DNA from: Cheilinus undulatus
Taxonomy: Eukaryota; Chordata; Actinopteri; Labriformes; Labridae
Assembly (NCBI RefSeq): GCF_018320785.1
Contig: NC_054872.1
Location: 25,688,769-25,752,768 of the forward strand
Direction: 5' to 3'
DNA length: 64,000 nt
Shown here: positions 1-64,000 of the stretch, piece after piece
Layout of the letters: the number at the start of each line of letters is the position of its first letter
Position numbering within the stretch: position 1 is the stretch's first letter
Translations under genes and position numbers: made by a program
Notes under the pieces: generated by a model
Databases searched by the model: none
The model's input: only the letters and a program-made list of their open reading frames with translations
What the model was told of the DNA's origin: nothing

Positions 1-32
1 AGAGCTCTGTCCTGTCTTTGGTTTGATTCCAG

Positions 33-16200: not shown

Positions 16201-19200
16201 ACAGGTTATAATCTTTTTGTTTTAAAATGTCAGAGCTGCTTGTTAGAAATGTATTTCACATAACTCTCCCCTCACAGTCGTCACAGAAAGCTGAAATGAC
16301 AGAATAAAGAGTGCACCTTTCAGAAGCAGAGGAATAAAGGGAATCTTTGGCGCCTTCATCTTCTTGAAGGAGTCCCTGTAGGCTTTGTGGTTCAGCGAGG
16401 GATCCTGTGAACACATTGTCAAAACCAATGAGTCCAATCCTCTAGGGGGGGAGCCGTGTGTGCCTGTGCATGCAAGCTTTGTTAAAACTGAAAGACGGCA
16501 GCATTAGAGAGTAATGATCATCCAAAAAGCCTCATGTTTCTCCTTATGCTCACTGGTGAAAACACCTGTTAGTTTCACTTCACACATCACAACGCAGATA
16601 CTTTCATTACCTACAGTGAATTAATGCCACTGTTTTTAGTTTAAAAAAAACAGATAAATATAATATAAACATGCAGATCTGTGAATAATACTTACGGTCA
16701 TGGTTTCTAGCTCTGAAAACAGCTTTTTGAATTTCCCAGGAATTTTCTGCAAAGACATAAAAACTAGTTAGAGTCAGTTCCAGTGATGTAGAGGGGATAC
16801 AGATGAAATGAGCCCTGTCAAAAAGAAGGCCATACTTACATCCCATGTTTGGCTGAGTCTGCTGACTGCTGCAGCGTTCAGGCCCATTATAATGGCAAAG
16901 AAACAGTTGAGATTCCTCTGAGCTTTACAGCTGTTCAAGAACAACAGAGGCACACATGTCAGTCATATCCAAGGTGCAACTTGAAAGGAACACTGCACAT
17001 TAAGACATATTGACCTGATTGGATCAATATTAGTGTCTTTTATATGCACAAAATATAGAACCTAAGTGTAAGTTTGGACATGTGCATGTTTTCAACTGTG
17101 CTATATCACCTTTTCTTTAAACAATACTCTTCAAGCATCTGGGGACTGGAGACACTGATTGTTGAAGTATTGCAAGTGAAATTCTTCACCGTTCTTGCTT
17201 GACATAGATCTTAAGTTGCTCAGCAGTGCAGTGTTTCTGTAATCTGCACTTCATAATGTGCTGTACATTTCAGGAGACAGGTGTGGACTACATTCAGGCC
17301 AGTCTAGAACCTGCATTCTTCAAACGTGAAGCCATGCTGTTGTAACTCGTGCAGAATGTGGCTTGGAATTGTCTTGCTCAAATACGCAGGGACGCCCCTG
17401 AAACATAAATGCAAGTTTCCCATCTTTTGGGCATTAATACACCCCACACCATCACAGTTAACGATATGGATGGCCCTTCTACTCTTTAGCCCTGAGGACT
17501 CAACAGCCAAAAACAATTTGAAATGAGGACTCATCAGACCACAGCGCACTTTTCCACTTTAGGTCAGTCCATCTCAGATGAGCTCAGGACTAGAAAGGTT
17601 GGCAGCACTTCTGGATGTTGTTGACACTTGGCTTTTGCTTTGAATGGTAGTCTTAAGATATATTTGTAGATGCAGCAAAATACTGTGTTGACTGTTAGTG
17701 GTTTTCTGAAATGTTCACAAGCCCATAGTGTGATTTACATCACAGAATGATGTGTGACTTTAATGCAGTTGAAAATACTTTCCTAATATGTAAAAATCTA
17801 TTTTAGTTTTATAACATAAGTGTGAAAGACACCGCTGTCTTTGTATAAGAGTCCTGCACCAGTTCAATTACTTTCAGCTGAGAGGAGAAAATATAGTTGT
17901 ACAATTTCACAGGTGTGGGCATGGGTAAAAAGAGGTAAAAAGCAGAGGCAGGTGACCAAAAAAAAAGAAACTTATAGGCTTAGAGGACAATGGTTACCAC
18001 TATTTTTACATCGAAATAAGTGAATACTGTCAAGAATTTATTCCTTGAAGCTTTGAGGTAATTTTAGGCATATTTTTCACCAGTATTACCTTTTAATTAT
18101 TTCATATAAGAGCTTGTACTTTGGCAAATGCACCGTAGTAGCCTCAGGGAATGACTCTCAAAGTGCCTATGTTGCACACTGTTGTAAGTTTTGAGTTGCA
18201 TTAATTTCTTTAACAGTCTTTAGAAGCGGACAGTCGTTTTAAAAAAAGCAAGTATTAACTAATGCACAGGAGCATGTGTGACTGTGTATTTACATGTGAG
18301 AGTGAAAGAAAAGAGCCCTCTTTTATTTACTTGTTTGGACAGACCTGGGTACTAAATAAGGATAATTGCAGGTCAGGTCTTGGCTCTGAGCACTACAAGT
18401 TTGGGCGGCTACAGGTATTACTAAAACTGGACCCTTGCAGGACTCTGCTTGTATGTCTTTAAAAGCAGAGTTTGAATGGCATGAAAGCTAATGCAGGCCA
18501 CTTATTTGCCACCAGAGGGGGCAGCATTCCCATTCATATCTCAACATCTCACTCTAAAGATGTTCAACCAACAGTATACAGTACACCTACAATGAAAACG
18601 CAGAAGGATGTGATTAGAACTACATACTGTGCGGCAATCTTGATGAACTTCTTGATGAGTTGGACTCTTTTGCACAGCATCGAACACAGCAGCACCTCAG
18701 TCATCACCCACAGCTGGACCTCATCACAGCGCTGCAGCAGCAGCTCCAATGCTACCGTGTGACTGCTGCCACAGTGACGGCTGAAGGTAAAATAAACCAG
18801 CTCTTGCTGTAAAACAACAACATCCAATCAGGAGTTAAGCAAAGCCAAACATGACTGATGTTTAATCTTAAATGTTAAAATCTTCCAACAGGGAGGAAAT
18901 TTAGAGGAAACTGATGATGCATATAAATTCAAATTATGGGACAAACCTCGTGCACTGAGTCAAAGATGGTCCAGTCAAAGTTAGAGAGAGCAACAGCCAC
19001 GTCCCATGTGTTTAAACTGAGCATGCGAGCTGTCCTCTGCTGCAGCTCTGAGTTGTCTGTGAATGGGTTCTGAAGAGATGAAAAAATAACATCAAACAAT
19101 AAAGATCGGTGCTGTTCATTCCTCTAGTCCTTTCTTTAGTCATCAACACATCAAGGATCATTACAAACACTTAAAGACACCTTCATTCATCATTTAATAT

Positions 19201-20721
19201 TAGCTTGTGTCTAGCCTGAATTGTGCATACATGCAGGTATGCTGGTATATACAGCATTTAGACTGTCTTATTTGCTGTTCCTTTGCAGTGTAAATGCATA
19301 TGTATCATCTACAGATGTTTGCAACCTCCCAAGTACTCATTTATATCTTTATTAGATGAGCATTTCACTAAAGGAGCTTGAATTAATTAAATAATGCAAC
19401 AACAAAACGACAACAGTTTAGCTCAGTGTTACATACACCAATGTAAGCTGCATCCAGAAGACGTGATGTCTTAAGTACTTTGACCAAAACGACAACACGC
19501 TGTGCAAGAGATATCATAGAAATACTCCTTCACTGCTTAACCAGATACCCTTTAAATCATAAGGACAAATCAAAGACAGAAAACAGGCAGTCTCTCGTCA
19601 CATAATTCACTAGCCCTGTTAGTAACCATCATTATAATGATACCAGAGCAGGGAAGATATGCCAGCTGATAACAAAAAAGTTGACTGGAATAATTCTCCT
19701 ATTAGGTTTCATGGAAGGTGAAGGTTTCTGTGAGCTGATGGCATTTGTTAACCATTGAACAACAGCTAAACAGGAAAAGATGTGTGCGGAAAGAGTGGCA
19801 GATTTTAGGGCGGATTTGCGTGGTATCAAAAAGTGATTGTTACCACAGACTATTGGACCAATCTAACCAACGAGTCATGTGTTCCAATCACATATCATTT
19901 CATCCAGATCTGGGATTTGAAGACCGCTGTACTAAACATATGTACATGCAGTGTTGATGAGCAGCAGACCACCAACACAGTTTCTAATTCTAAGTATATG
20001 CATGTGTATGTTTTAAGTTGAAAGGACACATTTCCTCACCAACACTTCCCCCAAGTCCTTCCTGCACACATGTAGCCTCCCAACTGGCCGTGAAGAATCA
20101 GAGAAGACTCTGTCATGAGGCTGCAGGAGGAGCCGACCTGCAGAGAGAAAACATATCACAAACAGCAGAATGCCGTTAAAAATCTGTCAGGAAGTGTGAG
20201 CAGCTATCAGTAGTCAGAGATAAGAGCCTGGGTCTGAGGGAGCCAGTCTCTGATAACAAATACTGACTATATATCAGCGAACTGAAAATGCCTCACTCTT
20301 TTAAGTGTTGACACCATGGAGATATGTGGGTCAGTCTTGATTATTTCTAATTTATCTCAGATATTCATGGGTGGGTTCATGAACATCTCAAAATTTGAAG
20401 TATCCAAGCTGCTGGTGGCCTAGTGGTTATGTTTCAGTACCCCATGTATGGAGGCTGTTTTCCTCAACGTGGGCAGCACAGGGCCAAGTTCAGCCTGTGG
20501 CTCCTTTCCTGCATGTCATTCCCCACCTTCTTTCTCTCCAGTTTCTGACAGAATCCACTATCTTATCCCTTAATTCAATCATAGAATCCCCCAAATACTT
20601 TTAAAAATTTTTTAAGGGTTCAGATTTATTTGCTTACAATTTCTTCTAGTCTGATAATTGTGACGGCCTACCTTATGCCTATGAGTGTGGTTGGTTTGGT
20701 TTCCTGGTTCAGCAGCCAATA

Positions 20722-20777
<56 letters not shown>

Positions 20778-23700
20778 AAGCACTTTGAATGAAACCTAAA
20801 TATCCTCAAGATGAGCTGCTGATTTCCTTCACCATTTCCATGGTCTCTAATCAAGGTAAAGGAAGACCATCAGTGGATTGAGCAGTTAACTCTGCACAAC
20901 TGTGTAAATCAGGCCTCAGATTTTTTAAGTAGCTTCTACTCCAACATCTCTCTCTCCTCTCTCCCTCCCAGGCCTCCACCAGCTAGTCGGGTTTCATTTG
21001 CACTCGACAACACTCCACACACATCCATAAATCGCTTCATAACTGATCTTACAGACTTACATAATTATGATTATCTTAACTTTATTTTGCAATAAATTAA
21101 CTTCTTTTAAAACTTGTTCATGTATGACTTCCCTTAATTAGTCAATGGAAAAAGCTGACCACTATAGCATTGTTGTTGCTGGTAAGAGTCATAAAGATGA
21201 GATTCGAAAAACAGTTTTGTTGTCTTTATTTGATCAGGGCGTGTAACCTGAAGGGGAGTTTGAGGCAGAGCCAGTACCAGTTTCAGTTTCTGCACTAGCA
21301 GTTACTCAGGCTACAAGTTTAACTTTTGAGCAACAGAAAGAGTTGTTACTCTTGCAGTATGAGCAGGAGAAGTTTCGTAAAAGCATGGAAAGAGAAGAGA
21401 GAGTAGAGCAGGAGAAGCTTCAAAGAGAGACTGGAGTTAGAGGATGAAGCAACATGCTGAGAGGATGAAGTTAGAGGTTTAAAAGTCCAGGTTGCAGTTG
21501 ATCAGAGAGCTCTGATGCCTCTAGTGGCAGTACATCAGGGTGAGCTGATGTTGTGGCTAACTCACGTTTAGTACCCAAGTTTAACCCTGATTCTTTTTTC
21601 ACTCTTCTGTACATGTTGCAAATGCTAAAAATTGGCCAGATTCAGACCGAGTGCAAATGCTACAATGTGTTCTCACTGGGAGAGCCCGGGAGGCTTATTC
21701 AGCTTTGTGTGGTGATGCTAGTCTGGATTATCAGATAAACAAACTAATGTGGAGTTTGTCCGAGATCTGACTTCCCATTTTCAGCGTTGGTGCTCAGCTG
21801 CTAAAGTTAACACTTTTAATGGTCTTTGTGAGCTGACAATATTGGAACAGTTTAAGAACGCTATCCCTCAGCGCATCGCTACTTATGTAAATGAGCAGAA
21901 GCCCTCTACAGCGCTAAAAGCAGCGGAGTTAGCTGATGACTTTGTGTTAACTCATAAGTCCAGTTTTGTGGAAACATGTTTTTTTTCGGTAAACCTGTTC
22001 ATAATGACAAGAGGTACTGAGCTAGTAGTGTGACAGTCATGAAGCCTGGTTTCTTGCGTGAGCCTGTACTGACAGCAGGTCATGACATCTATAGGTTGTG
22101 TAACAATTGCCCTGAGGAAAGTCACTGGAAAGACAAATGCCTCCTGTTAAAACCAAAAGCCAAGGTTAATTCAGATCTTCACGCTCCTGCAATGCTTTGT
22201 TCCAGAATTTATTAGAAGTCTGTTCATGTAGCCCCTGGTTTTGGTTTGGGTAAAAAATCAGGCAAGGTACTTGACATAATCATTAAAAATTCAGAATTAC
22301 CTCTCATTTTTTTACTTAGAAGTGAACTGCTGAAAGTTAATTAGTGACAAAAGAATTTTCATTCTATGTAAATGTAAAAAATGGTATAAACTGGCATTTT
22401 TCATTTCTGCACAGACTTCCACTACCATGACTGTAGCTGTCAATAGCCACTATTACTTCTGTGATGGTGGATGATGTGTATGGCAGCCAGTTAGTTTAAA
22501 TCATAATTACCCCCGGTGTAAGTGACGGCCACAAGCACCAGTTCACCCTGGGGGACGTCCATTCTGTCTGCTGCCGCCTGCAGCAGCTCCTGGGCCACAA
22601 CACTCACATGAGCCTTCATACTTAAGTATGAGTCCATGGTGATGTAGACATGACACAGCACTGAAACACAAAAGAAACATTACTGAAATAAAATAAGCAG
22701 GATCAACTATCAACACAGCAATATGTCGTTGAGCTGACTCAAGAGAAACAATTACTGTATCACTGTTGCCAAACATCAAAATTTTAGTCTAAAAAATAAG
22801 ATGCTTAATGCTTCTTCATGACTCCTAATGATTGCGTTTTATAACATGAATGAGAATTACATGAACCAAAACTACATGCCAACAGAAGAGAGGACATCGA
22901 GACAAAATGAAGCTAAGAAAGGGAGGTAATGGGGAATATCAGTGAAAAAAAATGAATTAAAAAGCTTCAAAAGAGTTAGACACATGAATGAATTAAAAAA
23001 TTTTATTCATCCTGCACTTCACCATTTTATGGAAAATGTATTATTCTGACGTAAAATTTTAGGATTGGCTTGCAATACACCAGTAATCCAAGAGTTGTTG
23101 TATTGTGATAATACTGTAATCATGCAACACTTATTTGAGTTATATTACAACTAACTAAATAACTAAAACTAAAATGTGAAAATCATTTTAGTTAACTGAA
23201 ACTAAATAAACACTAGGTTTTAACAAAAAAACAAAAACTAACTATAATAAAATAAAAACTGAGACAAAATATCCTTAGCTTTAGTCTCTGACACAACCAT
23301 ACTGACTGGCACCTACATCTAAGCCTGAGGAGAGTAAAATGGTCTGATTTGATTGGTTAAGACTTCACACAGTGGTAGTTTTATATCAGGAGTTGTATTT
23401 AAACATCAGCTTTAAATCAATTAAGTGATAAATGACGAGTAGCCTGTTAGAATATGTTTTAAACAATGTATGAGGCTCACTCAGCCCTGGCATGTATCCG
23501 AAAAAACTAAAACTAACACTAAAGCTAATAAAAACTAAACTAAAACGAAGCATTTTTGCAAAATAAAAACTGAACTAACAGACCAGCAGTAAAAACTAAT
23601 TAAAACTAAACTGAAATTCAACACATAAAGTGAAAACAAAATAAAAATAAAATGGATGAATCTGTGAGCTACTACTAATTCCCACATCTATATAATATCC

Positions 23701-26478
23701 AATATTGCCTAAATGCTTGTCTGTGTCTATCTGTATTAAAAGTAAGGGGCTTCAATGCAAAATAAGCTATACATGATAGCTCATTCATCAAACCACCAAA
23801 ATCAGAGAAAATGAATGTCTTGAAACTAGATTATGTCAGAAAGTCATAATACTAGCTAATAATGAAGGGATCTCCTTGCAGATTTATATTCTTGTGCAAA
23901 TTTCCAAATAATCCACTTCGCTATATTTCCCCAGGGCTTTGAGGACCCTAGTGGGGTCTTAATCAGCTGCCCATTTTTCTAGGACGTCTAGTGTAAAGTG
24001 TTTTGGGCTGAGGGTTACTCCAGAGGAATATCTAACCAGTGTGTGCTGTGGAGTGCAGTGTTACTGCAAGATTGCTTCCTTGATAAAGGCAAGCTTTCGA
24101 ACAATTTAGCTCACCCTCAACCAGAAACAAACTTATCAATTAAATCACCTGAAGTAGGAAGGAAAGGCAATAAAATGGGTTGCCCTTTATTGATAAGGTG
24201 ACCTTGAACAAAGTGAGTGACCCCACAGCACTGCAGTGTACACACTTAGTGAAAAACAAAGCAAGGTTGTTATATAGACCAAGCAGACCCCATAGGTTTG
24301 TCTTGATGAAAGTGAAAACTCAATTTAGTTTATAGATTAAAGTATTTGTGTTTCAAAGTAAAATAAACTTTTACAATATTTATCTCAAAACTTCAGCTAA
24401 TAAATGAAAGAATATCTGTTTGACTAGACTAGATGACTGTTGTCCTTTATTTATTATTGTAATGTTCTTGCTGTTTGGACCTGATATTTAAAACAAAGTA
24501 AAGCATGATCCCAGTCAGACAAAGGGAAATATTAGGTCATATCTCAGGAGTCTGCATTTCTAAACTTCCTCATTCATTCCCTGAAAAGTTGACTATTGTT
24601 CCCTTGTTCAGACTGAACGTCTACTTTGGAAACAGCGTATGATGGAAGAATGTGTGTAGAACGTCATGTTTTATGACTTACCTTCCTTGCTCTCCCTCTG
24701 TGTTCCTCTGGGAGTCAACCCGTTCTCCTTCAGGCTCAATTGGTGGAAAAGCATTTTGCTCTGAACAAGGAGGGAAATACGTGGATTTAGACACATAATC
24801 ACATTCTTTGAAAACACTTTGCAATTTGAATGAACTACAGAACAATGTTTGCAGCAGCAAACAATAGCTCTTACACTTAAATGTATGTTTAAGCCAGTGA
24901 CATTTTCTGTTTGATAAAATAAAGTAAGCAAAAGAGTTAAACTCACCTTTCTCTGAGGGGAGTATTCCTCCGATGTGCTGAAAATAAAGGAGGAAACAAA
25001 TCAGTAAAGCCTCAGATTAGAAAAGAACAAATGTTCAAAATGGATAACAAATTATAACTGCACAGCTTAAGACATTGCACTGTCGTCCTATTTCATCTAT
25101 AATTGACCAAAGTTTATCAACTTGCCTTTTAATACAGACATTTAAGTTTGCAGCCAACCCACTAAATTCCTCCACTGAATTTCTTTTAAATGTTCCTAAT
25201 ATGCCCCATAAATTATATCTTTCATGCCTATAATAAAATGTGGAGCTCACTGCCTCTTGATATTAAAAAATACAGACTGACTACAGACTGAAAAAAATTA
25301 AACTGCCCATCTTTTCATCTCTCTATAAACTGTATTTACATCCAGCTCAGTCTACCCTGGGGTCTCACAGTTAGACTTGCCCAGAAGACCTCCACAGGGA
25401 GGTGACCAAGAGGCTACCCAATCAGATGTCTGAACCACCTCAATTGGCTCTTTTCAAGACAAAGGGTGTCCCTCTGGATGTCTGAGTTCCTTACCCTATC
25501 TCTAAGGCTTAGTCCAATCACCCTCCTAAAGAATTGAATTTCGACCGCTTGAGCCCATGACCTCGATCTTTCGGTCATTACCCAAAGCTCATTATCAAAG
25601 GTGAGGGCTTTGCCTTCCGGTATTATATATCTCATCTAGCCTGGGAACACCTCAGAATCCCCCAAGAGGAACTGTACATTTTGGAGGGATGTCTGGGCTG
25701 ACTAGCTTAACTTGCTGCCACTGTACCTGGATAAGCAGGATGGATGGATGATCTAGATCAGAGGTGGAATTATCACAGTTTTTTACATAAGCTTTAATCT
25801 GGTGTTTACTGTGTGTTACTTAACATTTTACTCATGTAACATTTTACATACTTTCAATCCTCATTTTTTAATTTCACAAATGTACCATTGTGTTGGGACA
25901 CACAGAATTCATAAACAGATACAAGCACTAAGTTTATACCCAAATGACAACAATGATAACAGTAGGCTTGTGCTTAAAAATCGATGTGGAAATATATCAT
26001 CATGCACACCTTAATGATACACATATCGACACAGATTTCACAGAATCGATTTGGCTGTAGATGCTGTGTTAACAAAAAAGCCAACAGACATAGTAGTTAA
26101 TATTAAAAACATGGTGTAAGTGTTTGGCAAAACATTATTTTTTATATACTTTACAAGACAGCTCAACTTTTTTAGGTAATCGGGTTCAACATTTTTGTAG
26201 TCTTTACTGTTCTATTCTTTAACCTTCATATTTTTTTACCTATTATTGTCAACAAAAAGTATAATTAGTTGACAGGGATGCTGGTTTAGCTTGGCCGGTA
26301 GAGAAGGTAACTCATGTACACAGTCCTTGTTGCACTGGTCACAGGTTCAACAGCCAGCTGAACAGGCAATCTATTTCATACACTTCTTCCACTGCTCTCT
26401 CTACACACTTTAGTGTCTCTAAACAGCTATTCAACTGAAAAAAGGGGTTAAGACCCCAAAAAAGTCGTTGACAATATA

Positions 26479-26550
<72 letters not shown>

Positions 26551-29500
26551 AAGAACTTTGAATGAAACCTAAATATACTCAAGATGAGCTGTTGATTTCC
26601 TTCCCCATTTCCATGGTCTCTAATCAAGGTAAAGTACACACTGCTGCATTCATTTCATTACTTAAGATAAACATCAAAGCCAGATTAAAGTGCTTTTGTA
26701 GACTTTTAGACCCTCCAACATGAACTCTTAATTTAATCCCCCTTTTCTCATCAGTAAGTCCAGCTAGCATGACAGATAGCCTTGTGTCCATTATCATCCC
26801 TCAGCTCTCACTGGCCTCTGCATCACAATAGGCATGTTGGCACAAAGCCTGCCCTGAGGGATCCCCACTCACAGTACTAATGAAAAACTTGATCCTCGCT
26901 GTCATGTCACAACAGAGTGTGTGTGATCTAATTCACTCCCCTAGTCCTTAAAAAGTGTGTCAATAAGCTCAGTGAATTATAACGAGAGATCAAGTGGTTT
27001 TATTCCTTTTAGAAACGTAGGACTTGAGCTTTCTCTAGCACAGAGGCCAGATGGAGGTGGACGGCAGCAAAAGGACAAGATGAGTCTTCTTTTATAAAAA
27101 ATGACACCTTTCAGCGCTTCACCCAGCAGCAGATTGCTTCAAAACAGTCAACCTTGTCCTCCTGCAGCGAGAGCCTGATTGTGAAAAGCTCATAAATAGT
27201 GGAGTATGTCAGCGAGTTACACCCACACAGAGTCCACTGCTCTAAAGTAGTGGGTGTTATGGATATAAACATGAATAAGGCAGGCCTGGATAAAGAAAGC
27301 AGAGTCAGGTTGAATGATCTGTGCTGCTTTCTAATGGGCGGCAGGTTGGTGGGTCCCCAGGGAGAGGATCTGATTGGAGGCTGTGGTTGTCGGAGGGGAG
27401 GAGGTGCATGGGTGTGTCGATGTGTCTGGTGATCAGAGGGGGGATTGTTTACATGGTGATGTCAAAGAGTAATGTGATGCTTATCTGTGTTAAACCAAGA
27501 AATGGTAGCTATGGCAACAGAGCCATTTTACCAACATAAACACAGTCAGTATTGACAATGTATTCAGGAAATGTGATGATTGAATGCCACCAATGTGTTA
27601 AAAATACATCAAATACAGACGTACAAGAAGCATGCCATTGCTCATGTCTATGTCATTTATAGAGACACTCTCCCTCTTTCAGTCTCTCTCTCACTACAAA
27701 CTAGACATCTGTGATTAATCTCAGCCCATTTTTGAAGTCATTTCTTTACAATCAGTTTTATGCATCTTTTCTTTTCATTGCGTATTTACTATTTTCTTTT
27801 ATTGGACTTATCTTATTTTTACTGATCAATTTATTTATTTTATTTCTTTATAATTATAGATACAGTGCCTATAAAAATATTTACCTCTTGGATGTTTTAT
27901 CCTTTTGGTGATTTCATAAATTAGTCATGGTCAACATAATTTTGCTTTTTTGACAAAGAAAAACATCTTTGATGTCGAAGTAAAAAATGGATTTTGAAAA
28001 AGTAATTTCATTAAATAAAAATATTTAATGTAAAATAAGCAACTGCATAAATATTCACCCAAATATTAAAGTGTAGCCAAGCAACTCAAAGAACAGGTTA
28101 GAGAAAAGGTTATTGGAAAGTATACTAAATCAGGGGACAGATACAAAAAAAAATTCCAAGTTAAATCTATCATCAAGAAATGGAAGGAACATGGTGCATG
28201 TGTAAATCTGCCTAGATCAGGCTGTCCTCACAAACTGAGTGACTGTGTAAGCAGGAGACTAGTGAAAGAGGCCACCAAGACACCTATGACTACTCTAAAG
28301 GAGTTACAAGTTTCAGCAGCTGAGATGGGAGAGACTCTTTAAACAACAGCTGTTTCCCATGTTCTTCAACAGTCAAAGCTTTATGGGAGAGTGGCAAAGA
28401 TAGAGCCACTGTTGAAGAAAACTCTTGATTAAATCTCCACTAGAGTTCTCCAAAAGGCATGTGGGAGACTCCATGGACAGTTGAAGAAAGTTTTTTGGTT
28501 TGATGAGACCAAAATGGTACCTTTTGGCCATCATATAAGACACTGTGTTTGGCAGACACCAGCAACTGCACATCACCACAAACACACCATCCCCTCTGTG
28601 AAGCACGGTGGTGGCAGCATCATGCTGTGGGGATGCTTCTCAGCAGCCAGCCCTGGAAGGCTTGTGTGGCAAAATATAGAAAATCCTAGAGGACAAACTT
28701 ATTCAGTCTGCAAGAGACCTACGGCTTGGGAGAAGATTTATATTCCAGATGATGAGGATTGATTTATAAAATTAAAAAAAGGGTAAAACATCTATGGGGG
28801 TTTTTATAGGTACTTGGTCATTTGAACTTGTTTTTTACTCCAGGATTGACATGCTTAAGTAAAATGAGATGAATTACTGCCTGAAGGGGTGACTGCATGG
28901 GTATAAAGGAGTGGTCTAGAGGTGTTCTTTTTACCTCCTGTTTATTATACAGATGTTGGACATTATGTAAAAACACTCAGCAGGAAAAAAAATATCATTT
29001 GTGTACACATGAAAAGTTTAAATCTCAACCATTTTGTATCATTTTGTCTTGTTTTGTTTTATTTGTTATTTAATATTTGTACAGCATACAATGAAACACA
29101 TGAGTATAAAGTGGAGCAGTGATGACATATTTTGAAGGCCAACCCAGCAGCTAGCATCATGTGAGTTCCATCAACAAAAGGCCTATGTGTTTTCCATGGT
29201 TATTAGGATTATTGCTGATCATAAGCTCTGCAGCCAAGAGAGTTTATGACATTTACATTAATTTATGACATTTTGTTCATTTTAATCTTCATAGATGAAG
29301 ACTACTTTCACATTTCAAATGTAATCACTGAAAGTAAAAAGCTAATATTAGGCTGTAAAGGAACAAAACAACAGTTGAATGACTTCAAAGTCAACACCAC
29401 TTAGCTTTAAACTTCTATTTGATGCTCTTATCTCTTTTACAAGAGACTTTCTTCTTAGAGTGATGTAATCAGGTTATTGGTCATGGCTGTCTCAATCTTG

Positions 29501-32500
29501 AGTATAAGATTGTTTTTGTATTTACTTGTTCATCGTGATTGTGTTCAATGTCTCTGACTATCACTGTAGTCAAAGGCTTGCTGCACACTAGATGATTTTC
29601 AAGTCTTAAACGATTCTAAAAACATGTAAGACCACAGACATAAGGACAAATTCAAATTATATTTCATTTTATAATCCTCCAAACAGGTTAGATGACTCAG
29701 CCAGACCAACAGCCTCACAGTGATGAGTCCCCACACAGGAAGGTATAAGCGAAGGTGGGTTTATGTTTGTGTGAAAGTTGTGATGCTACCTGGTCTGCTT
29801 GCTCTCATTGATTGTTGTAGGTAAACTGTCAGAGGCATTGTGACCTAGAATCATACATGTCAAACGTGTTTGACCTGTACAGCATGCAAACATCTCTACA
29901 GTTTTCTAAAATCTGCAATACAGTTACACAGGTAAGTATTGTAAGTATTCCTTAATGTTAAGAGGTGTGTTTTATATTTTATATTGTTCCTCAATTTAAC
30001 CATATGCTGTGTTTATTTGAGCTGCTTTAATACAACTTCTAATCTCAGGTAAGCTAACATTAATGCTAAAACCTGAGTGTTGAAACCGGAATGGGCGTGT
30101 CTTGCAAAATCTTGTGGCTGTAAACATGGAATAAGCCTGGATGATTATGTTTGTTTGGATCTACTGAAACCATCCAACACACTGGTCAAGCACATTCCTC
30201 CTCTTTGTTTTTTCCTTTCTGATTACAGATGTTGTTACATAATCACTTTAACACTCAGCCATGTGTGTTACTGGTTTCTGTTTTATTATCATGCTAAACA
30301 TAAAGAACTTGAAAACTTTTCATCAGTTCTTAAAATTCCCGTCTTTCCTCATTTTTGTAATTTTGACATAAAAAGCTTCATGACCTTCATGTTCCAGAGC
30401 AGAAGAGGCAGAACACAGTGATCACTCTTCAGTCTGTGAATGGATTCATTGATGAGAAGCTGCAGAAAACTACAGCGCAAAGAAGGAGCTCATTATGACT
30501 TTGCTGCCAGTGTCTCTTCTTCTGTTTAAGTGTCCAACAGTTTCATAAATGCTGGCTGATGTAAACACTCATACCAGATATCAATATACACACCCCTTAT
30601 TTAATCAGTTCTACTGATAATTTTTAGATGTGCAAGTGTGAATTACCCTATAAAATGCTTAGTTAGCTTTGGTGTGGTCACTTACTGTCTATGCTGCAGC
30701 TGGTACAGTTGCTGCAGCTCCCTCACATCCTTCTCCAGCGCTGGGTGTTCATACAGATCATCCAACACGTATCGACACAAAGTCTGCAAGGAAATGTCAA
30801 TTTTCATTTCTCACATACTACCCTCACCTCCCGCCCAGTCCCCCGCCCTCTTTCTTGTGCAGAACATTTCATACCTTCATGAAGAGTTTGACATGCTCGT
30901 CCTCCCTCAGGAAATCTCTGCAGAGAGACACCCACTGTGACACCAGGTGCAGGACTTTTCGTTTCCTTTCCAGAGCCTCCTTCCTGTCCTCTTTCCCTCT
31001 GTAACGCTTGGAGCAATAGGTGGGATTTGGTTAAGGTTTCGGCACAGATGGAGAGAGAGATCTATTTGCTGACAGCAAATGAAGCATACAAAGTAACAGA
31101 AGTGCGTGTGGGGTGTTGATATGAGGATGAGTGGCTGCTTTGAGCCAATAAAACTTTCATGTTGAGTATAATCATCTACTTCTTTATGTAATATACATAT
31201 GGGGGTTGTGCAGTGTGAATTTACGTAACAATAGTCCTAAATTGAAGGATATTGTCCCAGCAGAGCTTGGCATAAATCACTTGTAGACATGAACACCGGG
31301 TAGGTCAGCAGAAAGTCATCCAACAGCGTATCTGTAAAATATAACAGACAACAATTGGACATTAACATAGGGCGCTAAGGATTCATCACAGGGCTGATGT
31401 GTCACAGCCCAGTGCTGTAAGGGTGAGAAGGGAACTCAGGCAAGGTCAAGTTCAACAATATTTCTTTTGTCCAGACTTTTTCACTGACATGCCCACCCTG
31501 TACGCCACTCTAAGGGTGTAGACTTTGTTATTTTTTCAACAGATTTTTTCCCATGCCTCTGGTAACATGCAAGGTCTTACAAAGCAAGACCTGGGTTGTA
31601 TCAATCCTCCTTCACACCCGATGGTGTCCCCAGGAAGCTTACTCGCCACATCTGCGCCTTACTGCAGCCTCAATCTTTGTCCCAATTATGCCTAAAATTT
31701 ATGCACAGTACAGTCACTATGTGAATACTTTGACTGTTAGAAGCTCTCTTGTTTCATTACATAGACAGAGGGAAAAAAAAAACTTAAGAGAACTTTAAAT
31801 TCATTGCAGGCCATCATATCGTCACTCTACATACTCCCCCTCATTAGATCTGTTAAAGGATGCTGCAGGGCAGCTACACCAGTGACCTTGACAACAGTAT
31901 GATTAATGACTGTTGGGCTGCACAAACAGTAGGTCTGTACTTTCAATTGCCAGAGAGACTTTTTCCTTGTTTATTAATAACCCCAGAGAGAAAGCTCAGT
32001 CTTCAATGAGAGACATTGGTTAAAAATCACTAAGCAGCAACATTACACCAGCATTTTATACTTCATGTTCAGCCTTTAGTCATCAGTGAGAGAATTCTTC
32101 TGTTCAACGAGTTCGAACAAGTCTTTTCTTGCTTTATCAGTCTCATACATTGCAGGCTGTTTCACTGAAGATAAGCTGACAATTTTAATGTGTCCTTTAA
32201 CTTGCTGCGACCTCTGATGATGTCTGTTTTCAGTGTGATTTGCCTGAAAACAGAGAAGCCATCTGATGATACTCAGCCATCACCCTAATGTGTTTACATC
32301 ATTCTCAGCCTCTGTATCCTTGTGTGATTCCTTCCCAAGGTTACACATGAGGAAGTGTGTCAGTAAATGGATTAAACAGAGATGGCCAAATAGATCATCA
32401 GATTACTCAGACACATCCCCATAACATGAACTTCATCTAGCGTATGCATCATCACATCACGTCTTTTACAGCATGATAAAACTTAACATATTTTTTATGA

Positions 32501-35500
32501 TCTCTAATTTTATTAGAAGTCCCTTTCTTGCAAAATATTTCTTAAAATGAGAGCATTTCTGTACAATTTAAAGAAAATCTTCCAAAGCGTTTCTGAACAT
32601 GTCACAAAAGCCTCTAAATCAATTTCTCAGGCATAAAGAAAGAGAGAAGGACAGTAACTCCCAGACGCGATGCCCAGCCGCAAGCGACAAACCTCTACAA
32701 ATCCTATTAGGTCAGCCTCCTCTCAACCCGTCTGTAAGTGTGCCTCACATCCAGAATTGTAAATTCTGCTCTTTAATTTCACACTGGCTTCCCTGGGCCT
32801 TTGTGTGCGTTCTGGTCCACAGGACTCCCTGACATCATTATGTTAATCCTGCTGAGCAGCTGTGCATGCATCAATCCCTGCTTATGAGAGGCTACACATG
32901 TAGCTCCAATACAAATAACACAGCAACACCTTAAAACAAAGCCAGAAAACAACTCAAATAAATCATCCACCCACACGCTCTACTGTACCTCATACACACA
33001 CTGCTGGCTGTTTGTGTTTTTACTCTGAGCTATCTAAACTAAACCACTTTCTCAAGAGTAACAGCTCATGAACCACTCCCCAGGCTGTACTCACTGCAAG
33101 TTTTTTGAAGTTTGAAAACAGAATAAATATTTCATTTATTACCTAAAGTCATATTCTCAAGTTTTTTTTTTTCTCCTAGCAACACAGCAATAAAGGGAAT
33201 CTCCTGCAGTGTGTACTTATTACAATCAATTTAGCAAAAGACATGTTTGTTTCACTGACCCACAAAATACTGATGCTAGACTTGTACGGTATGAACAAAG
33301 TTGCTTTGACCACTTATTGACTCCTACCCAATAACATTTCTTTCTAAGATGCAAAGTCATTATTTAAAGTTGGCCTAGATTTTTGTACAACTGTAAACAA
33401 AAATTGATGCAGCCTGGAATATGCTTTTTAATATTTTTCCAATCACTGTTTTGAGAAATACCATCATTTACCAGAAACTTCTATCTCATTCTCAAGAACA
33501 GTAACCTACAGAGTTGTCATGTAGCTACTGTATAACATTACCAACACAAGCCGTGACACCATCATCCTGGATACACCATGCATTTATAACTGGTAAAATT
33601 TTGATTAAAATAGAACCCTTATAACAGCAGATCCTGTGTTTTAATCTTTACAAATTTCTTTTCTTTTTTTCTGTTCTTCAGTTGCAGTCTTTAGCTGAGT
33701 TCACTCGCCAACATCCTGATAAATAACATCTGAAGGCCGAATTTGAGGAGCGATCAGATAGCACCTTAAACCCCACAGAGCCTACAGGTGGTGGGGTGGT
33801 GGTTTTTCAGTACAGATTCAAGCCTGAACTGCCAATGGCAGAGCAAAGGAGAGACTGGAAATATTGCAGCATTAAACAGACTGCTAAAATGGGAGGATGT
33901 TTGTCAGGTGATTGTATGATGCATGTCAGGAAGGAAATCAGCGTAACTGGAGTTGTCTGTCAGAACGAGCTCGCAGGCACCTCTCCATATGTAGAAAATT
34001 GTTAAATGGAAGATTATGGAGTAAGTATCCTTTAGGAACACCTGAAGTCATAGATGGAGCTCTAATTTAGTGGATTACTTCACTCATGGTGCAAATGTGT
34101 CTCACAGTAGGGCTCACTGTACAACAGACAACATCAAAACACAACTAAACACTCTGCCCTAGGACATGATTGGAAAATTTGCCCATGCATACCCCAGATT
34201 TCAAATCACAGTGTGCAGAGCTTAGATCAGTGACTCCTTCCACAGCTGAACTAACACAGGTGAATCAACACCATCAAATACCTCCAACACTGAAGATCAT
34301 TTCACTCAGAATGGAGTTAAAATGAAACTTTGGGAGCTGAAATCAACTCAGAAACATTACAGTGCATTACTCCTGAATTGCACTTGTGCATATGATCAAC
34401 TCCTAAAACCTCATCTATCTATAAATAAATTGTATTAAGTAAGGTTTTATGGTGAACATTTTAGTAGCAGTTACAACGAGTTGAAGATCGCTGAAAGCTC
34501 CCTTTGGAGCGACTGTGGGTCAGTAGGTAGGGCCAGTTATCTCACAATCAGAAAGCTGTGGGTGCGATCCTCAGCTCCTGCAATCACATGTTAATGTGTT
34601 GATGTGTCCTCCCACTGCTTCATCGTTGGTGTGTAAATGGGTATGGGGTGTCTTGAATGGGATTAGCTAACACTGATGTCCACTTCTCCATAGTAACCTC
34701 TGCAGTCAGTGTGTGAATGTGGAGTGAATGGAGTGAAAGGGTGTCAATGGATAGGTGTAACCTGCAGTGTAAAAGTGCTTTGAGTAGAGTGTGGGGTCAC
34801 TCTTAGCCTAGCCTGCAGCCCGACTCATTGCCCAGCTTTTGCCTTCTCGCACAATGCCGTATCTGCCTCCTCCCCACCTGGCTGTAGGTGTCATGATGCT
34901 TTTGCATCCTCCTCCTTTCAGTCTCCAAAATCCCGTTCTCCGGATAATCTCCATCGGGAAAGATGCAAACTCTGCAGACACACTTCCTTTGCAGTAGTCA
35001 AAGAAGCAGTCTCTTATACACAGAATGTCAGTTCTGGTGTAAATGTAGGGCTTTGTTTTGCTGCTAGTGATGGAGCGCCAGGTCGCTGCGTCAGTACGCG
35101 CCGCCGCCATGCTACCTCAATAGGTAGCATTCAGTAGTCTATTAGCAGTCAGCGTTACCCATAAAGGCTTCTTTGTTATTTGTAATTTAAGTTAAGACAA
35201 TTAAAAGCATTTAAAAACAGAAAAAGTGCCTTCAGTTCTTAATGGATGACAGAAGAGTCTGTGAGCTGAACTAAATCAGGCTGACACTTGCTTAGCTTGT
35301 TTTGGGGTGCTTAGCGTGGATCCCCTTTATGTTTTGTGTCAGATGATTTAACAATGATTGCAATAGTGCAATATTGACACAGGGGGTAGCTGTAAGAAAT
35401 GAAATAGCCAGAGTGTTTGTGCAAGTAAATGTTAGCATCATTATCAAAAAAGCTAAAATATTTTCAGAGCATTTCTACAGAGAAGTGAATGTATGAATAC

Positions 35501-38500
35501 TGTCAGGCACTCAAAAATCTACTCAGTTTCCTTTTAGAGGAAATGCAAAATGGATTCATCGATCTAGCTCATCAATCTACTGTGAAGCAATCATCCTGTC
35601 AGTCAACCTGCCAATCCTTTTTGCATTTCAATAAGAAGTCGTAAAAGTAATCAATGTAACCTTTGAAAACAGAATGTTAATGTGTCACTTATTGGCTCAG
35701 CAACTATCAAGAGCCGACCTCTTGGTGCAGAAACCTTAAATCAACATGATAGTATGGGTTTAGAAATTAAGAATGATATCTGCTGATTTAACACCATGAT
35801 CTGACACATTAAAATAAGCATCAACGCCTCACTGTATATCAAGAGAAAAACACAAATGGTTCACTGCAGGTTTTCCAGGGCAGACAGAATACAGTGGGAG
35901 TCTGTATAGAGCAAAACTGAATGACTGCACTCAGAGCAGGCAACTCAAACACTTGTAAATCCTACCCACAATGCCCACACAAGGAAAGAGAAGCAGCATG
36001 TCAGAGATCTCTATACAGTTTGGTCGATTGCAGTGGTTCAGATTCTACTTTCCCTCTAACACGCCTGTGGTGCTTCCAGAAAAGTGCCATCTCTTGCAGA
36101 AACTCAGAGAGCTCCACTGCATTCTTAATGTTGTGTATTCAGTTTAAAAGGAAGCAAATGATAAAACTAGCTTTTCTAGTGTGCTGTATGTAACTCATAA
36201 ACCCAACAGCAAAAATCTGCTGCAATCATCCATCATGTTGCTGCACAATCTCTCTCATGAGTGAAAGACCCGACACAGCAGATTGGTCCATGTTCATATA
36301 AATCTCTTTTTTGATGAAATCAAGGATCTCATGCTCTTGTGATTCTGCTGAGCTCAACCTCCAAGGACACGATGAGCAGCAGCACCAGAGCATGAGAGGT
36401 TCTGTACTCACACAGAGAGAAGCAGCAAGGCCAGCAGGAGTCAGACTATTAAGCATCACTGAGTGTAGATCAATTGCTACTCAGGACTCAGGTCAGTCCT
36501 TCTCTGCAGGTCTGTGGCTCTTTGACCCTGAGTATCACTCATCATCATGCTAAGGCCTTCAGCTCCCAGCAGAGGTTCATTTCAATGCACTAATTGTGAG
36601 GTGAGCTAATGGTGAATGATTTGCAAACCACAATACAATACAATACAATAAAATACAATACAATAACTTTATTTATCCCCGAAGGGAAATTCATTTGTCT
36701 GGAGTCTCATCTGTTTATGGTAAAATTATATAGTCTTATTGCTGATGGTATGAAAGAGCTTCTATATCTTTCTGTCATGCAGCGAAGAGAGAGGAGCCGT
36801 CCACCACCAAACTAAACACACTGAAAATAAGCTAAAAGATCCAGCACTGATTAGTTTGGCAGGAATGCTCTGAAGAAATTATTTTCATGTTTCAATTCAC
36901 ATCAATATTAAAACTCAATTTTTCTAATAAAAAAAGCAATTCAACATCAAACATCTCTTCTGTGCATGTAAAATGCACCATTTTACATATAAGGCATATC
37001 TCCTGAGAGGACATTTAGATCAATTTCATTCACTCCCTCATCAAAATGAGTAACGATTCCTGGTATGGGGGTAAGCCTGCCTCTATCCCGATGAGAGATC
37101 ATGTGTGACCACCTCTGTCTCCAAGGAAATTAGCATTTCCCATTTCTCCTTTCTCCCCTGAACAAGGAAAGGAAATTCTTCCTCTCTTGTGTTCCTCCTC
37201 TGTTTGTTTGACTATACCACTGCTCTCTTTTATCATCTCCCATTGAACAATCCTTCCAGCTCAATCACGGAGTCTCCTCTGCCTTGGCAACAGTGTCACA
37301 TTATCATGTACCTGCTGGGATAAAAGGAAATGTGTTGATTTGTCGTTGCTGGGCGGCTGGACTGCGTGTCATACAGTCTGCTACAACACTGCTCATAAGA
37401 TATGAACAGCGTTTATCTCTGTCAAAAGCTTTTAAATGAACAGGCTCCAACTTAGTGGCATTCTGGGAATGATATCACATGATTAGCTCGGTAATGTTGC
37501 CCAGAGGGAGCTAATGTCCCAGCTCCTCTGAGAGATCGACGGGTAGGGAGAGAGTAAAAATGAAAGTAATGGGAGTTGTTTCTCGCTTTCTCTTGTCATC
37601 TATATTTCACAAGCATACAGAAACGTCTGCTCACCAGCAACAGAACACCATCTTTACAAAAATGAAGTTAGAAAGTTGTGCAATCACCAACCAATGAGTA
37701 AATATTCTCCTACATTTTATTTTCTGCTCTTGCAAATGCTGAAGAATAGCTTTTAGTAAGGATATTGGTCTGTATTTTTAAAGTAAAAGGTGTGTGCACT
37801 GACCTGACTCTTTGCCCTGTGTCGTCCCCTGCTCCTCGTCCAGTGTCAGGTCATTCAGCAGGTGCTCCAGGATCTTCTCCGGGGTCCCTGATACCACCAC
37901 ATACCTGTCAGACACAGCAGAGTCAGTGGACGAGTCCTCATCAATCGAGGATAAAGAGCGGCTGCTGCTCCATTCCTCCTCTCCTTCTGTCCCCTCATCA
38001 TCTATGTAACGAAAGTAGGGGACGTCAAAGGTTGGCATGGTCAGTGGTTCTGCCCGACTCGTACTGTCACTGCTGCTCTCCTCTGATCCCTCCTCATCGT
38101 CTTCATCGTCCTCCTGCTCCACCAGGGCGGCATGTACCAGCCTGCCCTCTTCTTGCCGCAGGTTTGGAGGCTGTGGCCGAGATCCCATCCTTTTCTGAGA
38201 GTCCCTGTGCCTTTATACACAGGGCAACGTTGCCGTGGTTACAGCTGCATGCCCCCTTCACCTATCCATCGGTCCACCTGCAGCTGTCATAGCCCGGAGT
38301 CCACTGCTGTCAGTCCTTTAGGCACACTGAGGATCCCCCCTGTTTGCTCCCAGCAGATAAAGCTTGTGAATGGGATGCAGCCTGCAGCCTCACAGTCCCA
38401 TACTGATCACTTCTGTGTGTTTAATGTAGTCATTTATGAGCAGGGAGTTGTGATGCAAGCATGCCTGATTGAGTGTGTGATCCACAGAGATGAAGAGGGA

Positions 38501-52672: not shown

Positions 52673-52678
52673 TTTATT
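52673..52678 (-). terminator. Candidate polyadenylation signal of the ferroportin gene
   Basis: AATAAA on the minus strand, about 280 nt past the stop codon at 52958. It is the first canonical hexamer met after the coding region. Confidence 0.5.
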
Positions 52679-52957: not shown

Positions 52958-55900
52958 TTATGTGTCGAGGCGGGGTTTTCTCTTGGCTTTGTGTGCATAC
53001 AAGAAGTACATGATGTGCCCAGTGGTGATAAACAACACAGAAATGATAACAAGAATGCCAAAGTGCTGGGGCTGTGGAGCAGAGATGACCATGATGAAGT
53101 GAAGCAGATCCATCAGGTAGTTCATAGAGCTTTGCACTCCGTTTACAACACCTCTCTCGGACTCACAGATGTTCTCCTGTAGGAGCTGGGTCACTGTCAG
53201 GTCGAAGGACCAAAGACCTAAAGCATACATTTTAAATAAGTTTATAAGTTCTCATGTCTATTAAACAAGTCAAAAGTCTCAATAGCTGGTATCTACTCTG
53301 CTCCTCAAACAGCACTGTACTTTTTTACAAGTCGTCCAACATAGGTTATGATGTATTTAAGACGTTCAAACATATCAGTGAGTAGAGCAGGATTTGCTTT
53401 TGACAGGATTTTTATCCGCTGTAATCACATAAAAGACTTAAAACATTTAACGTTGATGTTTGTCTACTCACCAATGCGTGCTGTGATGACACCCAAGAAC
53501 AATAGGATGATAGAGATGTAGGATTCTGGTGCTGTACCAGAGGGCACGTTGTCAAAAAGGAGAGTGTTGTTGGTCCAGTGGATGGAGGAACGGTCTGGTA
53601 GCAGTGGCTGATTACTGCCTCCCCGCAATGGATATGTGTGTTTCTGCCTTTGACTCAACATCCCTCCTAGCTCAGTAGTGGAGTTGGGACTGACAGGAGG
53701 CATCAGCAAGCTAAGGTCCATAGGGCTGCCTGGGGCAAACACAGAGCAGACACACAGTAGCAAGCAGCCAAGGTGAAGGCAGCTCGAGATGATGCCTGTG
53801 TTAACCAGACCGTAGGTCTTCCTCAGTCTGGTGAACATCACAGTGCCCATCAGCCCTGTGATAGCTGAAATACCCATCAGAACACTAAGGAGGGAGCCAC
53901 TAATGCCCTGAGTGTAGGCATACCCAGTGGTGATACAGTCAAAGCCAAGTACTGTGGTGTACAGAAAAGCCAGACCCATTCCTGCCAGGAAGACAGGCTG
54001 GCGGTAGTAGGCCCTCCAGCCATCCTTACAGGTGCTCACCAGCCAGCGAAACCTCCGGAAACACAGTGGCAGGTCTTTGATTTCCTTTAAGTGCAGGCTT
54101 GTGTTGCAGTTACCATCTGTCTGAGGTTGAGGTTGTGCTACATCATCTCCCTCTGATGAAAGAGAAGAATGTCATCCATCATCAGTTCATCAATTTTAAA
54201 GGCCCAAATCCATAGCTGATGTACTTCATCATTTCTACTTCATGTCAAGTTAGAAACCTCTGATCAGTCAGACACAGACCATCCACACTAACCTACAAGA
54301 AAATTTAGTGTTGCTGAAGGTCTTCAGAGTGTGAACAAATTATTTATAAAAGATCTGACTTTTGGAAAAAGAAATAAGCAGTTCTTAAGTATCATATTTG
54401 ACATAAAAGTCCCATTTCTCACAATGTGTGTATTTAATATTGTATTTTACTTCAAATTTGAGTTGATATACTAAAGTGAGCTTTCAAAGATAAGCATTTG
54501 ATGTAACTGGTATGGGAGACATAAGAGAAAAGCATTTCAGTGGGTGCTATGTTACTGAGTCAAATCACCTTACAAAATTTATCGCATACAATAGTAGAAA
54601 ATTTTTGTGGTAAAAAAAAACTTAAAGCTAACTTATTTTTATGTGACTCCAAGTCAATTTTAACACATTTAAATCATAAACTATAACATTAGAGAGAAGT
54701 TATGGAACAAAAAACGTCTATCAGTCTATACCTTGTGACCCTCTTCTCTCCATCCTCTGTAGATAGACCTGAGCCTGATCCTCCTCTGTGAGGGGCGGTT
54801 TGATTGAAAGAGCAGGAACAATGCGATACACTCGCGACAAGAAGAAGAACTCCACGATGAGAGACACAAGGTTCCAGCCCAGGATGAAGCCACAGCCAAC
54901 TACATTGGAAGCCAGGGTCATGACCTGTCCCACCGCTAGTGGGGCCAGGATGTTAGTCACCTGATCTATCCGCCTCATGGTTGCATTCATTCCTTTTGTT
55001 AGGATCAGAGATACAGAGTTTAATGAGCTTTCATCGGAGGACCTTCAACAAGACCAAAAGTGAACACTGTTATCTGAAAGCCAAATATTTATCAGCCACA
55101 ATGCATGTGATAAACATGCACTACCAAAAATTTGAGCAATGTTTGCAACAATTGGTGCATGTGCATTAAAAAAATGGTATCCCCTCACCAGCAAGGTGAC
55201 CTCGGTTGTAGCCTGTGATAACCACAATCCAGTCCCTCTGAATGGCAATGGTTAAGGCTGTGCTTGCAAGGTTTGCCACATCTGCCAGGACGATCACCAC
55301 CGTATAACAAACCACCTTGTGTAAGTTTTGCGATGCAACATGTTACTATGACAGCACAGAGTAGCCACAAGCTCAGAAGCAGAGACAAGAGGGACAAAAG
55401 CAGAAGACACAACAGCAGCAATAATGTCTGTGTAATCATCATGGTGAGTATTCTGAACAGGTATGAAATGTATTTATTTAAATATGTAGTGTCTACTCAC
55501 AGTAAGCCATCCATCCCAGATCTGTTCAATCCTTTTTTTATATAAAAACACCAACATGAGCACAACGCTACATACTGTCACTGAGATGTTCTGAATGAAG
55601 AGAGATGCATGTGCAACTGAAATAGGAGACAGAAGAACAGTTTTAGACCCAGTACATCGATGATATGTTCTATTTTCACGAAAAAGTAATGCCAGCCTTC
55701 ACAGATATGAGTCAGTGGATGTGTATCTCACACCTTGAGTCTTGCTAGTATTGAGTCTTGCTATTAAATCAGGGACTGATTTACACTTCAGACACCAAGG
55801 GAATGCAATAAATCACCTGTCGGGATAGGAAACCAGCAGACTTCTGGGCCCAAGATTCACATCCACTAATCTATATCACTCTTCTTTGATTGATTGCATG

Positions 55901-56493
55901 TTGCATTTTTAAATGGGCGTGAAACTGTTCTGCATACCTTTATTCCTGGGATTACGATCCACCCAGTCTCCAATCAAAGCCCCGAGTAGGAGCACTGACC
56001 CAGCCACTACCAATCCAAACACAGCCGTCAACAGTAGGTTACGGCCATACAGCTCAATCAGGAACACAGAGATTGCAAAGTGCCACATGCGGTCCCCCTG
56101 TCAGGGAAAAAATAGTCACCATTGCGTGTTATTTTGCAAGACTCAGTCAACAGTTAGCAATAGTTTACCTTTATTACCGTTATTCAAGTTCTCAAGTGTC
56201 ATGTATTTCTCTAGTGAATGATCCTTACCCACATTGACAAAGCTCCACTGACATAGATGAGAAACTTGGGACCTTTGAGGTAGATAAGAGCTGAACCTTA
56301 AAGGAAAAGTATGAAGATGGAATAAGCACACATTAAAAAGAGTGTGCTGCAAACAAATTGGAAAATGTCATGATTATTTTTTAGGTTTACCTGGTATACT
56401 TATTCCTTTTTTAACTCTTGCATCCCTGATGTCTTCAGACTCAAACTCAACCACAACCCCACCACACTTAGAGGCATCTGCTCGCTTGGACAT
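52958..56493 (-). CDS. Ferroportin-family iron exporter, divergent (SLC40A1-like)
   Basis: Ferroportin is the plasma-membrane Fe2+ exporter controlled by hepcidin. Coding exons, 5' to 3': 56391-56493, 56229-56296, 55938-56097, 55501-55616, 55189-55315, 54732-54992, 53472-54152, 52958-53217; all GT-AG, 1776 nt, 591 aa (human SLC40A1 is 571). Hallmarks: [77 protein letters not shown] and GHIMYF. The metal and hepcidin residues equivalent to human D39, H43, D325, C326 and H507 are kept (D59, H63, D350, C351, H573). H32 is Gly52 and Y64 is Phe84. The N-terminus is unlike Slc40a1, and the cytosolic loop near 245-320 has few lysines. An acceptor (ACTAG|GCAATG) just before the ATG implies a 5' non-coding exon upstream. 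The family is certain; orthology to slc40a1 is doubtful, so I give no symbol. Confidence 0.93.
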
Positions 56494-58071: not shown

Positions 58072-59958
<1,887 letters not shown>

Positions 59959-63358: not shown

Positions 63359-63860
63359 TCAGGGATTCTGTGACAAGGCTTGGGATTTGGTGATCGTATT
63401 GTCCATTTGTATGTTGTCAGAGAAGTGTGACTCATTCTTCTTCTTTGTCTTTAAACATTTACAGACTGCAATGAACGGCACAGCAAGACTGGGAATCCCA
63501 GCCAATATAAAGATGATCACATAGACCCAAACTGGATATGGCTTTTCTTCCAGTGTAGGGAATTTCTCCTGAAAATTCAGACAAATAGAGAGATATTTTT
63601 GTTTTTAGCTGTACATGAAATATGGAATTTAATCCATATCAAGTATATTTTCAAAACAACAGTATTCCTAAGTATTGAGAGTTTTATTAGTTTTTACCGA
63701 TTCTGGGTCCCAGGCTTTGTAAAATATCTCTTCAGTAACCTTTGTTACAAAATAAAACACCAAGATGAAAAACATAATGAGTGGACTGATGACCCTCCAT
63801 GATGCCTGCCAGAAAAAGTTGGGTTTGTGTCCAATCATGAACTTAATATCATCGTTGAAC
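63359..63860 (-). CDS. slc6a14: SLC6 family Na+/Cl- coupled transporter, SLC6A14-like, last two coding exons
   Basis: Only the C-terminus is in the window: exons 63698-63860 and 63359-63568, joined in phase 0, with the stop at 63359. The first exon carries [18 protein letters not shown] and a membrane helix ([20 protein letters not shown]11), ending at KAWDPES. The second has [19 protein letters not shown]12 ([19 protein letters not shown]) and a short cytosolic tail of about 35 residues. The IGHKP box, the WDP motif before the last helix, and YPxWVY followed by AGxPSL fit SLC6A14 (the broad neutral and cationic amino-acid transporter) better than glycine or GABA transporters. The substrate-binding helices TM1, TM3, TM6 and TM8 lie beyond the window edge. 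The SLC6 call is firm; the A14 assignment rests on about 120 residues. Confidence 0.8.
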
Positions 63861-64000
63861 CTAGGAGAACAGAGACAGACATACCGCTATGATATATACA
63901 CTTGTTCTTTTCATCATTTTTTAATACATAGAATCTTAAATGCTTGTTTTCGAGTGACTGCATGAAATTCAAGCCTACAAAACATTCATTTTTTTTAATG

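Follow-up and report, generated by a model that had tools for sequence, protein, structure and literature searches.

The described proteins closest to the subject of this study are the vertebrate ferroportins of the SLC40A1/ferroportin-1 type, known from human structures (PDB 6w4s, 8dl8) and represented among fishes by P0215 and P0237. The lysine-rich loop between the two halves of the protein is used in hepcidin-driven ubiquitination (PMC8235187), and a 5′ iron-responsive element (IRE) has been predicted in sea bass slc40a1 (PMC5665920). According to the same sea bass work, from 2017, two types of hepcidin occur in many fish although these have only one ferroportin gene, and sea bass ferroportin is 568 residues long (PMC5665920), a length from which we infer that it is of the canonical type. 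Here we describe a ferroportin gene of another kind in the wrasse Cheilinus undulatus, on 64,000 nucleotides of contig NC_054872.1 (positions 25,688,769 to 25,752,768 of the forward strand, assembly GCF_018320785.1), a stretch hereafter called the window. Judged by its sequence, this gene is a second ferroportin, or paralogue, which lies outside the slc40a1 clade and is common to ray-finned fishes from reedfish to wrasse; databases list it by the name used for the first ferroportin. It shares with SLC40A1 the Pfam FPN1 domain, 12 predicted helices, the residues equivalent to human D39, C326 and H507, and the hepcidin pocket, and with sea bass slc40a1 its eight coding exons (PMC5665920). It is unlike SLC40A1 in its identity of about 54–57% to the fish protein, in both its termini, in the substitutions K229I, Y64F and H32G (human numbering), in its smaller number of loop lysines, in an additional conserved extracellular motif, and in that no IRE was found in scans of the locus.

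Other members of the family offer further comparisons. Bacterial BbFPN (PDB 5aym) has the same fold (Foldseek E 8.5e-11) at 18% identity and is set apart by the S2 site (C326/H507), which is described as a feature of mammalian transporters only (PMC10030120). Common carp reportedly has two ferroportin genes that are said to differ in expression, in work ascribed to Kaminska-Gibas from 2023. This finding, as cited in PMC12897282, resembles ours in that two ferroportins occur in one fish, and the carp genes may be this paralogue or tetraploid copies of slc40a1. In some cartilaginous fishes, a second ferroportin with another residue at C326 has been described (Nemeth and Ganz 2021, PMC8235187); it is likewise a second gene in a jawed vertebrate, but at this residue it differs from the paralogue, which has C326 in 89 of 90 full-length database sequences. 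In a literature search that covered titles and the beginnings of abstracts of the papers listed, with subscription journals mostly outside it, no account was found of a C326-bearing second ferroportin across ray-finned fishes, nor any paper on the fish paralogue under the names slc40a1b, slc40a1-like or slc40a2.

Gene model and phylogenetic placement

The original prediction, made from the window's letters alone, had placed a diverged ferroportin at this locus, and the splice model bears it out: the coding sequence runs on the minus strand from 56493 to 52958, in eight exons of 103, 68, 160, 116, 127, 261, 681 and 260 bases (1776 in total), encodes 591 residues without internal stops and has GT..AG at all seven introns. 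Coding exon 1 (56391..56493) holds the start codon and an N-terminus that is clade-specific by comparison (19 residues, not shown), and helix 1 begins in exon 2 (56229..56296). Exon 3 (55938..56097) carries, by residue comparison, F84 (human Y64) and the two residues of iron site S1, D59 and H63 (human D39 and H43). After exons 4 (55501..55616) and 5 (55189..55315), exon 6 (54732..54992) encodes helices 5–6 and the start of a lysine-poor cytosolic loop, with I249 in place of human K229. The remaining cytosolic loop, helices 7–9, an extracellular loop and the beginning of helix 10 lie in exon 7 (53472..54152), which also contains the codon of C351 (53935..53937), equivalent to human C326 of the hepcidin site and iron site S2, and a clade-specific extracellular motif of 17 residues (53563..53613, residues 459–475). 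Exon 8 (52958..53217) supplies H545 (human H507), helices 11–12, a short basic C-terminus and the stop codon.

The FPN1 match (563 bits) spans residues 44–569, most of the window protein, and human ferroportin is matched at E 1.7e-190; among solved structures, the ferroportins of human and tarsier come closest in sequence. The database entry P0001 from C. undulatus is identical to the window protein. An AlphaFold model built on a family alignment of 41 sequences, with a mean predicted local distance difference test score (pLDDT) of 61, has 12 long membrane helices, and its best PDB matches are human ferroportin (TMt 0.83–0.90 to six human entries). Directly upstream of the gene, at 58583–59266 on the minus strand, lies a 228-codon open frame for a transposase of Tc1/Sleeping Beauty-like type.

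To place the protein, homologues were drawn from the best 120 of 904 matches to the window protein, the best 120 of 1020 matches to a zebrafish Slc40a1 query and the best 120 of 861 matches, down to 438 bits, to residues 1–262 of a sturgeon query. Sorting the 264 listed proteins by motif was crude, with 13 of them unplaced, and was replaced by a comparison of their alignment scores against the two gar proteins, which separates 144 paralogue from 120 canonical sequences. The fish proteins listed for the window query, besides the window protein itself, are 77–93% identical to it. In a tree of 28 paralogue and 23 canonical fish sequences with human, tarsier and Bdellovibrio, the Shimodaira–Hasegawa-like approximate likelihood ratio test (SH-aLRT) supports the paralogue clade at 100 and the canonical fish clade at 90, and the window protein stands outside the slc40a1 clade. 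A position inside a single slc40a1 clade, one half of the result that was to refute the original prediction, was not observed, and the prediction of a second paralogue holds. The clade contains teleosts, bowfin, gar, sturgeon, paddlefish and reedfish, lineages that split roughly 400 million years ago, and what had been put forward as a feature of one species belongs to ray-finned fishes at large.

Within this clade, the window protein is 79.2–93.7% identical to 13 other members, compared with 54.5–57.4% to the 13 canonical proteins of the same species, and the two proteins of one species are 53.5–56.8% identical to each other. At least 17 species have both ferroportins among the matches listed: Lepisosteus oculatus, Labrus bergylta, Archocentrus centrarchus, Myripristis murdjan, Centroberyx affinis, Lampris incognitus, Polymixia lowei, Nothobranchius furzeri, Synaphobranchus kaupii, Arapaima gigas, Astyanax mexicanus, Salminus brasiliensis, Lota lota, Chanos chanos, Myxocyprinus asiaticus, Pangasianodon hypophthalmus and Conger conger. 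For instance, L. oculatus has P0095 and P0237, and L. bergylta has P0002 and P0215, the paralogue being named first in each pair. The longest contigs of paralogue and canonical entries are unequal in all 14 species with contigs for both, which suggests that the two genes lie on different chromosomes, bearing in mind that one entry can cover several contigs or assemblies. Moreover, 51 alignment columns differ between the clades while being at least 96% constant within each (28 paralogue and 25 canonical sequences), 33 of them without exception. The clade comparison also confirms that the N-terminus and cytosolic loop are unlike those of fish Slc40a1, as had been noted earlier, and adds a shorter C-terminus and the extracellular loop to these differences.

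Iron sites, hepcidin pocket and clade-specific changes

The pocket and iron-site residues compared here are those named in a structural study of vamifeport and hepcidin binding (PMC10030120). Across the 28 paralogue sequences of the tree, to which the counts in this section refer unless stated otherwise, 14 of the 16 pocket residues are kept throughout, including C326 and H507 of iron site S2; the other two are V68, retained in 27 sequences, and Y64, which is F in all. Y333, named elsewhere, is also invariant, as are D39 and H43 of iron site S1. The position of human H43 is N in 119 of the 120 canonical fish sequences (P0121–P0240), whereas in the paralogue it is H in 139 of 144 and N in none, and hence among the fish sequences seen only the paralogue has the full mammalian S1 site. 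In human, the Y64N change reportedly influences the ubiquitination that follows hepcidin binding (PMC13407347), and the change from Y64 to F in the paralogue is milder than this. The replacement of H32 by G is likewise among the clade differences.

The cytosolic loop has changed more visibly. K229, the ubiquitination lysine of the canonical loop, is I in 28 of 28 paralogue sequences, and lysine is also missing at K240 in 27 and at K247 in all 28. Overall, the loop has 2–8 lysines in the paralogue (mean 4.0) versus 6–12 in canonical proteins (mean 8.2). At the nucleotide level, no Rfam match to an IRE was obtained at 52000–63900, and a scan for the IRE loop at 52000–63400 gave three loop matches on the strand of the gene, none of them with a proper stem, in scans run with the 5′ untranslated region undefined and without a positive control. 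A HOTAIR_3 match from Rfam inside coding exon 7 scored 23 bits, below its gathering score of 80, and was dismissed as chance.

A further mark of the clade is the 17-residue motif in the extracellular loop between helices 9 and 10, which is exact in 20 of the 28 tree sequences, while its 13-residue core occurs in every one of them, from reedfish and sturgeon to wrasse. Among full-length database sequences, the core is present in 84 of 90 paralogues (three of the other six carry it with one change) versus 0 of 120 canonical proteins, and the helix 9–10 loop is not conserved across 25 canonical sequences. The motif falls in a stretch of the structural model with pLDDT under 50. Such constraint outside the membrane suggests that the motif serves a binding partner, for which a docking ferroxidase is a candidate; to our knowledge, no partner of the motif is known. 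One reedfish isoform (Erpetoichthys calabaricus P0246) is without the motif stretch, and P0248 of the same species has it; the absence from P0246 may stem from alternative splicing or from an error of prediction.

Proposed function, competing readings and the age of the duplication

These features point to a second plasma-membrane iron exporter that hepcidin would plug but would mark less well for degradation, a reading to which we assign a probability of about 0.6. Seated in the plasma membrane, the protein would export ferrous iron through the two-site cycle of ferroportin, and hepcidin would plug it at C351/H545, acting mainly by occlusion. The smaller number of loop lysines would weaken its hepcidin-driven removal, translation without an IRE would be free of control by iron regulatory proteins (IRPs), and a partner protein, perhaps a ferroxidase, could dock at the extracellular motif. 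The paralogue is a natural variant that has the hepcidin pocket while K229 and roughly half of the lysines in the loop are absent; it could help to tell occlusion and degradation apart in a living animal, and the zebrafish orthologue P0084 makes the question testable. A second, ancient and well-kept ferroportin puts in doubt those fish studies that assume one hepcidin target. It is tempting, though a long shot, to extend this to a system of two iron-export receptors in ray-finned fishes, in which Slc40a1 is destroyed by hepcidin while the second ferroportin is plugged, hardly destroyed and IRP-free, its motif making it the target so far missing for those type-2 hepcidins by which Slc40a1 is not regulated.

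Several observations tell against weaker degradation and against parts of this scheme. K236 is kept in 28 of 28 paralogue sequences and K253 is lysine in 8, and 6 of the 28 have 5 to 8 loop lysines. Three of them, P0058 from smelt, P0092 from sturgeon and P0109 from paddlefish, have 6 to 8, within the canonical range and unlike the other 25, so that lysine loss is not uniform and may have been stepwise or partly later than the clade. Given the retention of K236 and these six sequences, reduced degradation may not hold clade-wide; hepcidin at the pocket may also be sufficient for degradation. The limits of the IRE scans given above, the modest confidence of the structural model, and the fact that the pairing of two genes is seen in 17 other species count on the same side.

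The other explanations concern what the gene is and what its product does. That it is an ordinary, somewhat diverged slc40a1 orthologue, as its public name implies, is hardly credible in view of the full support for a separate clade, the 17 species with both kinds of gene and the 51 columns that set the clades apart. A dying or silent copy is just as hard to entertain: partial sequences exist in the database and no point in favour of decay was found, while the gene is intact here, 90 database sequences are full-length, and the metal sites are kept in all 28 sequences examined. A protein of ferroportin fold with a changed job, either the transport of another divalent metal or hepcidin binding as a decoy without transport, deserves more attention but is still improbable. 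The 51 clade differences, with H32 to G and Y64 to F among them, and the long branch between the clades (1.5 to 1.9 changes per column) fit such a change, and Aspergillus FpnA is reported to confer nickel, cobalt and gallium resistance without a role in iron (PMC11890741). Against it, the four metal-site residues are all kept in 28 of 28 sequences, including H43, which the canonical fish sequences seen lack.

The age of the duplication bears on a further alternative. Membership of reedfish, sturgeon, paddlefish, bowfin and gar makes the paralogue clade older than the teleosts and than their genome duplication. Identity to human ferroportin is 75.0% for the canonical gar protein versus 56.1% for the gar paralogue, and rooting by minimal ancestor deviation (MAD) in a 14-sequence tree without outgroup falls between the clades (deviation 0.248 versus 0.536 for the next branch). 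A root there would place the duplication before the tetrapod split, with the tetrapod copy either lost or not seen. The sequences behind this analysis include no invertebrates and no paralogues from sharks, coelacanth or tetrapods, and no sequence from any of these three vertebrate groups is among the best 120 of 861 sturgeon-query matches (at least 438 bits), below which a weaker orthologue could hide. Hence an origin in the early vertebrate genome duplications (2R), followed by loss in tetrapods, is likely; of the original claim of an ohnologue, the separate paralogue in one block with a RAPGEF gene stands, and the 2R origin is a probable extension of it.

Two other rootings do not support an early duplication. 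With Bdellovibrio as outgroup, the primates fall outside both fish clades, a result set aside because the outgroup is too distant, on a branch of about 10 changes per column. Non-reversible rooting of 14 sequences puts the root on the reedfish paralogue tip (61%) or the Arapaima paralogue tip (29%), with 4.8% between the clades, 0.6% on canonical fishes and 0.1% on primates, and falling as it does on single paralogue tips it is unusable. The first of these, although its branch is far too long to trust, and the lack of tetrapods, sharks and coelacanth among those best sturgeon-query matches would suit a duplication in the ray-finned stem lineage followed by fast change, so that tetrapods never had the copy. 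We consider this unlikely, though not negligible: the identities of human to the two gar proteins and the MAD root speak against it, and the clade has been slow since the reedfish split (the reedfish paralogue is 79% identical to the window protein), so that a fast burst would need to be confined to a short stem.

Genomic neighbourhood

Three other genes were recognized in the window. A dynein heavy chain gene, taken as dnah11 from its type and position, is present with its 3′ part at 27..8398 on the plus strand, with limits from open frames; it has a Dynein_C domain, its stretch 2635–3012 is matched by a salmonid protein, and its C-terminus is nearest DNAH17 and DNAH9 in the PDB. A RAPGEF gene lies on the minus strand at approximately 16246..38212, where a RasGEF exon (18567–18827) is nearest RAPGEF4 in the PDB (E 2e-17) and the other exons were read by eye from open frames. 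We take the gene to be probably rapgef5 rather than rapgef4 from an N-terminal motif at 37781–38212, which has no Pfam match; the original placement beside rapgef5 is borne out by the matched exon as to a RAPGEF neighbour and depends for its label on that motif. Upstream of the ferroportin gene, the 3′ end of an slc6a19-like transporter gene lies at 63362..63886 on the minus strand (63671–63886 by SNF match, 63362–63604 by eye), with matches to B(0)AT1 (E 3e-20) and to the Liparis protein P0089.

Part of this arrangement recurs in other fishes. Salmo trutta P0244 joins an SLC6 protein, the paralogue ferroportin and a dynein stretch, the last of which matches window 2635–3012, and Liparis tanakae P0089 joins SLC6 and the paralogue ferroportin; both fusions are likely gene mispredictions and, as such, indicate a neighbourhood common to wrasse, trout and Liparis. 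The trout dynein piece is on the ferroportin strand, whereas the window dynein gene is on the opposite strand and beyond the RAPGEF gene, and hence the detailed gene order is not the same in the two. In human, RAPGEF4 and SLC40A1 lie on 2q and RAPGEF5 and DNAH11 on 7p, that is, in the HOXD and HOXA blocks. No paper naming both RAPGEF genes together with a HOX-linked paralogous block was found among the best 10 of 35 literature matches, as judged from their listed entries.

Between the dynein and RAPGEF genes, a 154-codon open frame at 8616–9077 on the minus strand has no Pfam or PDB match. Mobile-element remnants were also read by eye from open frames, namely transposase-like fragments at 5924–6208 and 28070–28759, both on the plus strand, and a reverse-transcriptase-like fragment at 5647–5967 on the minus strand.
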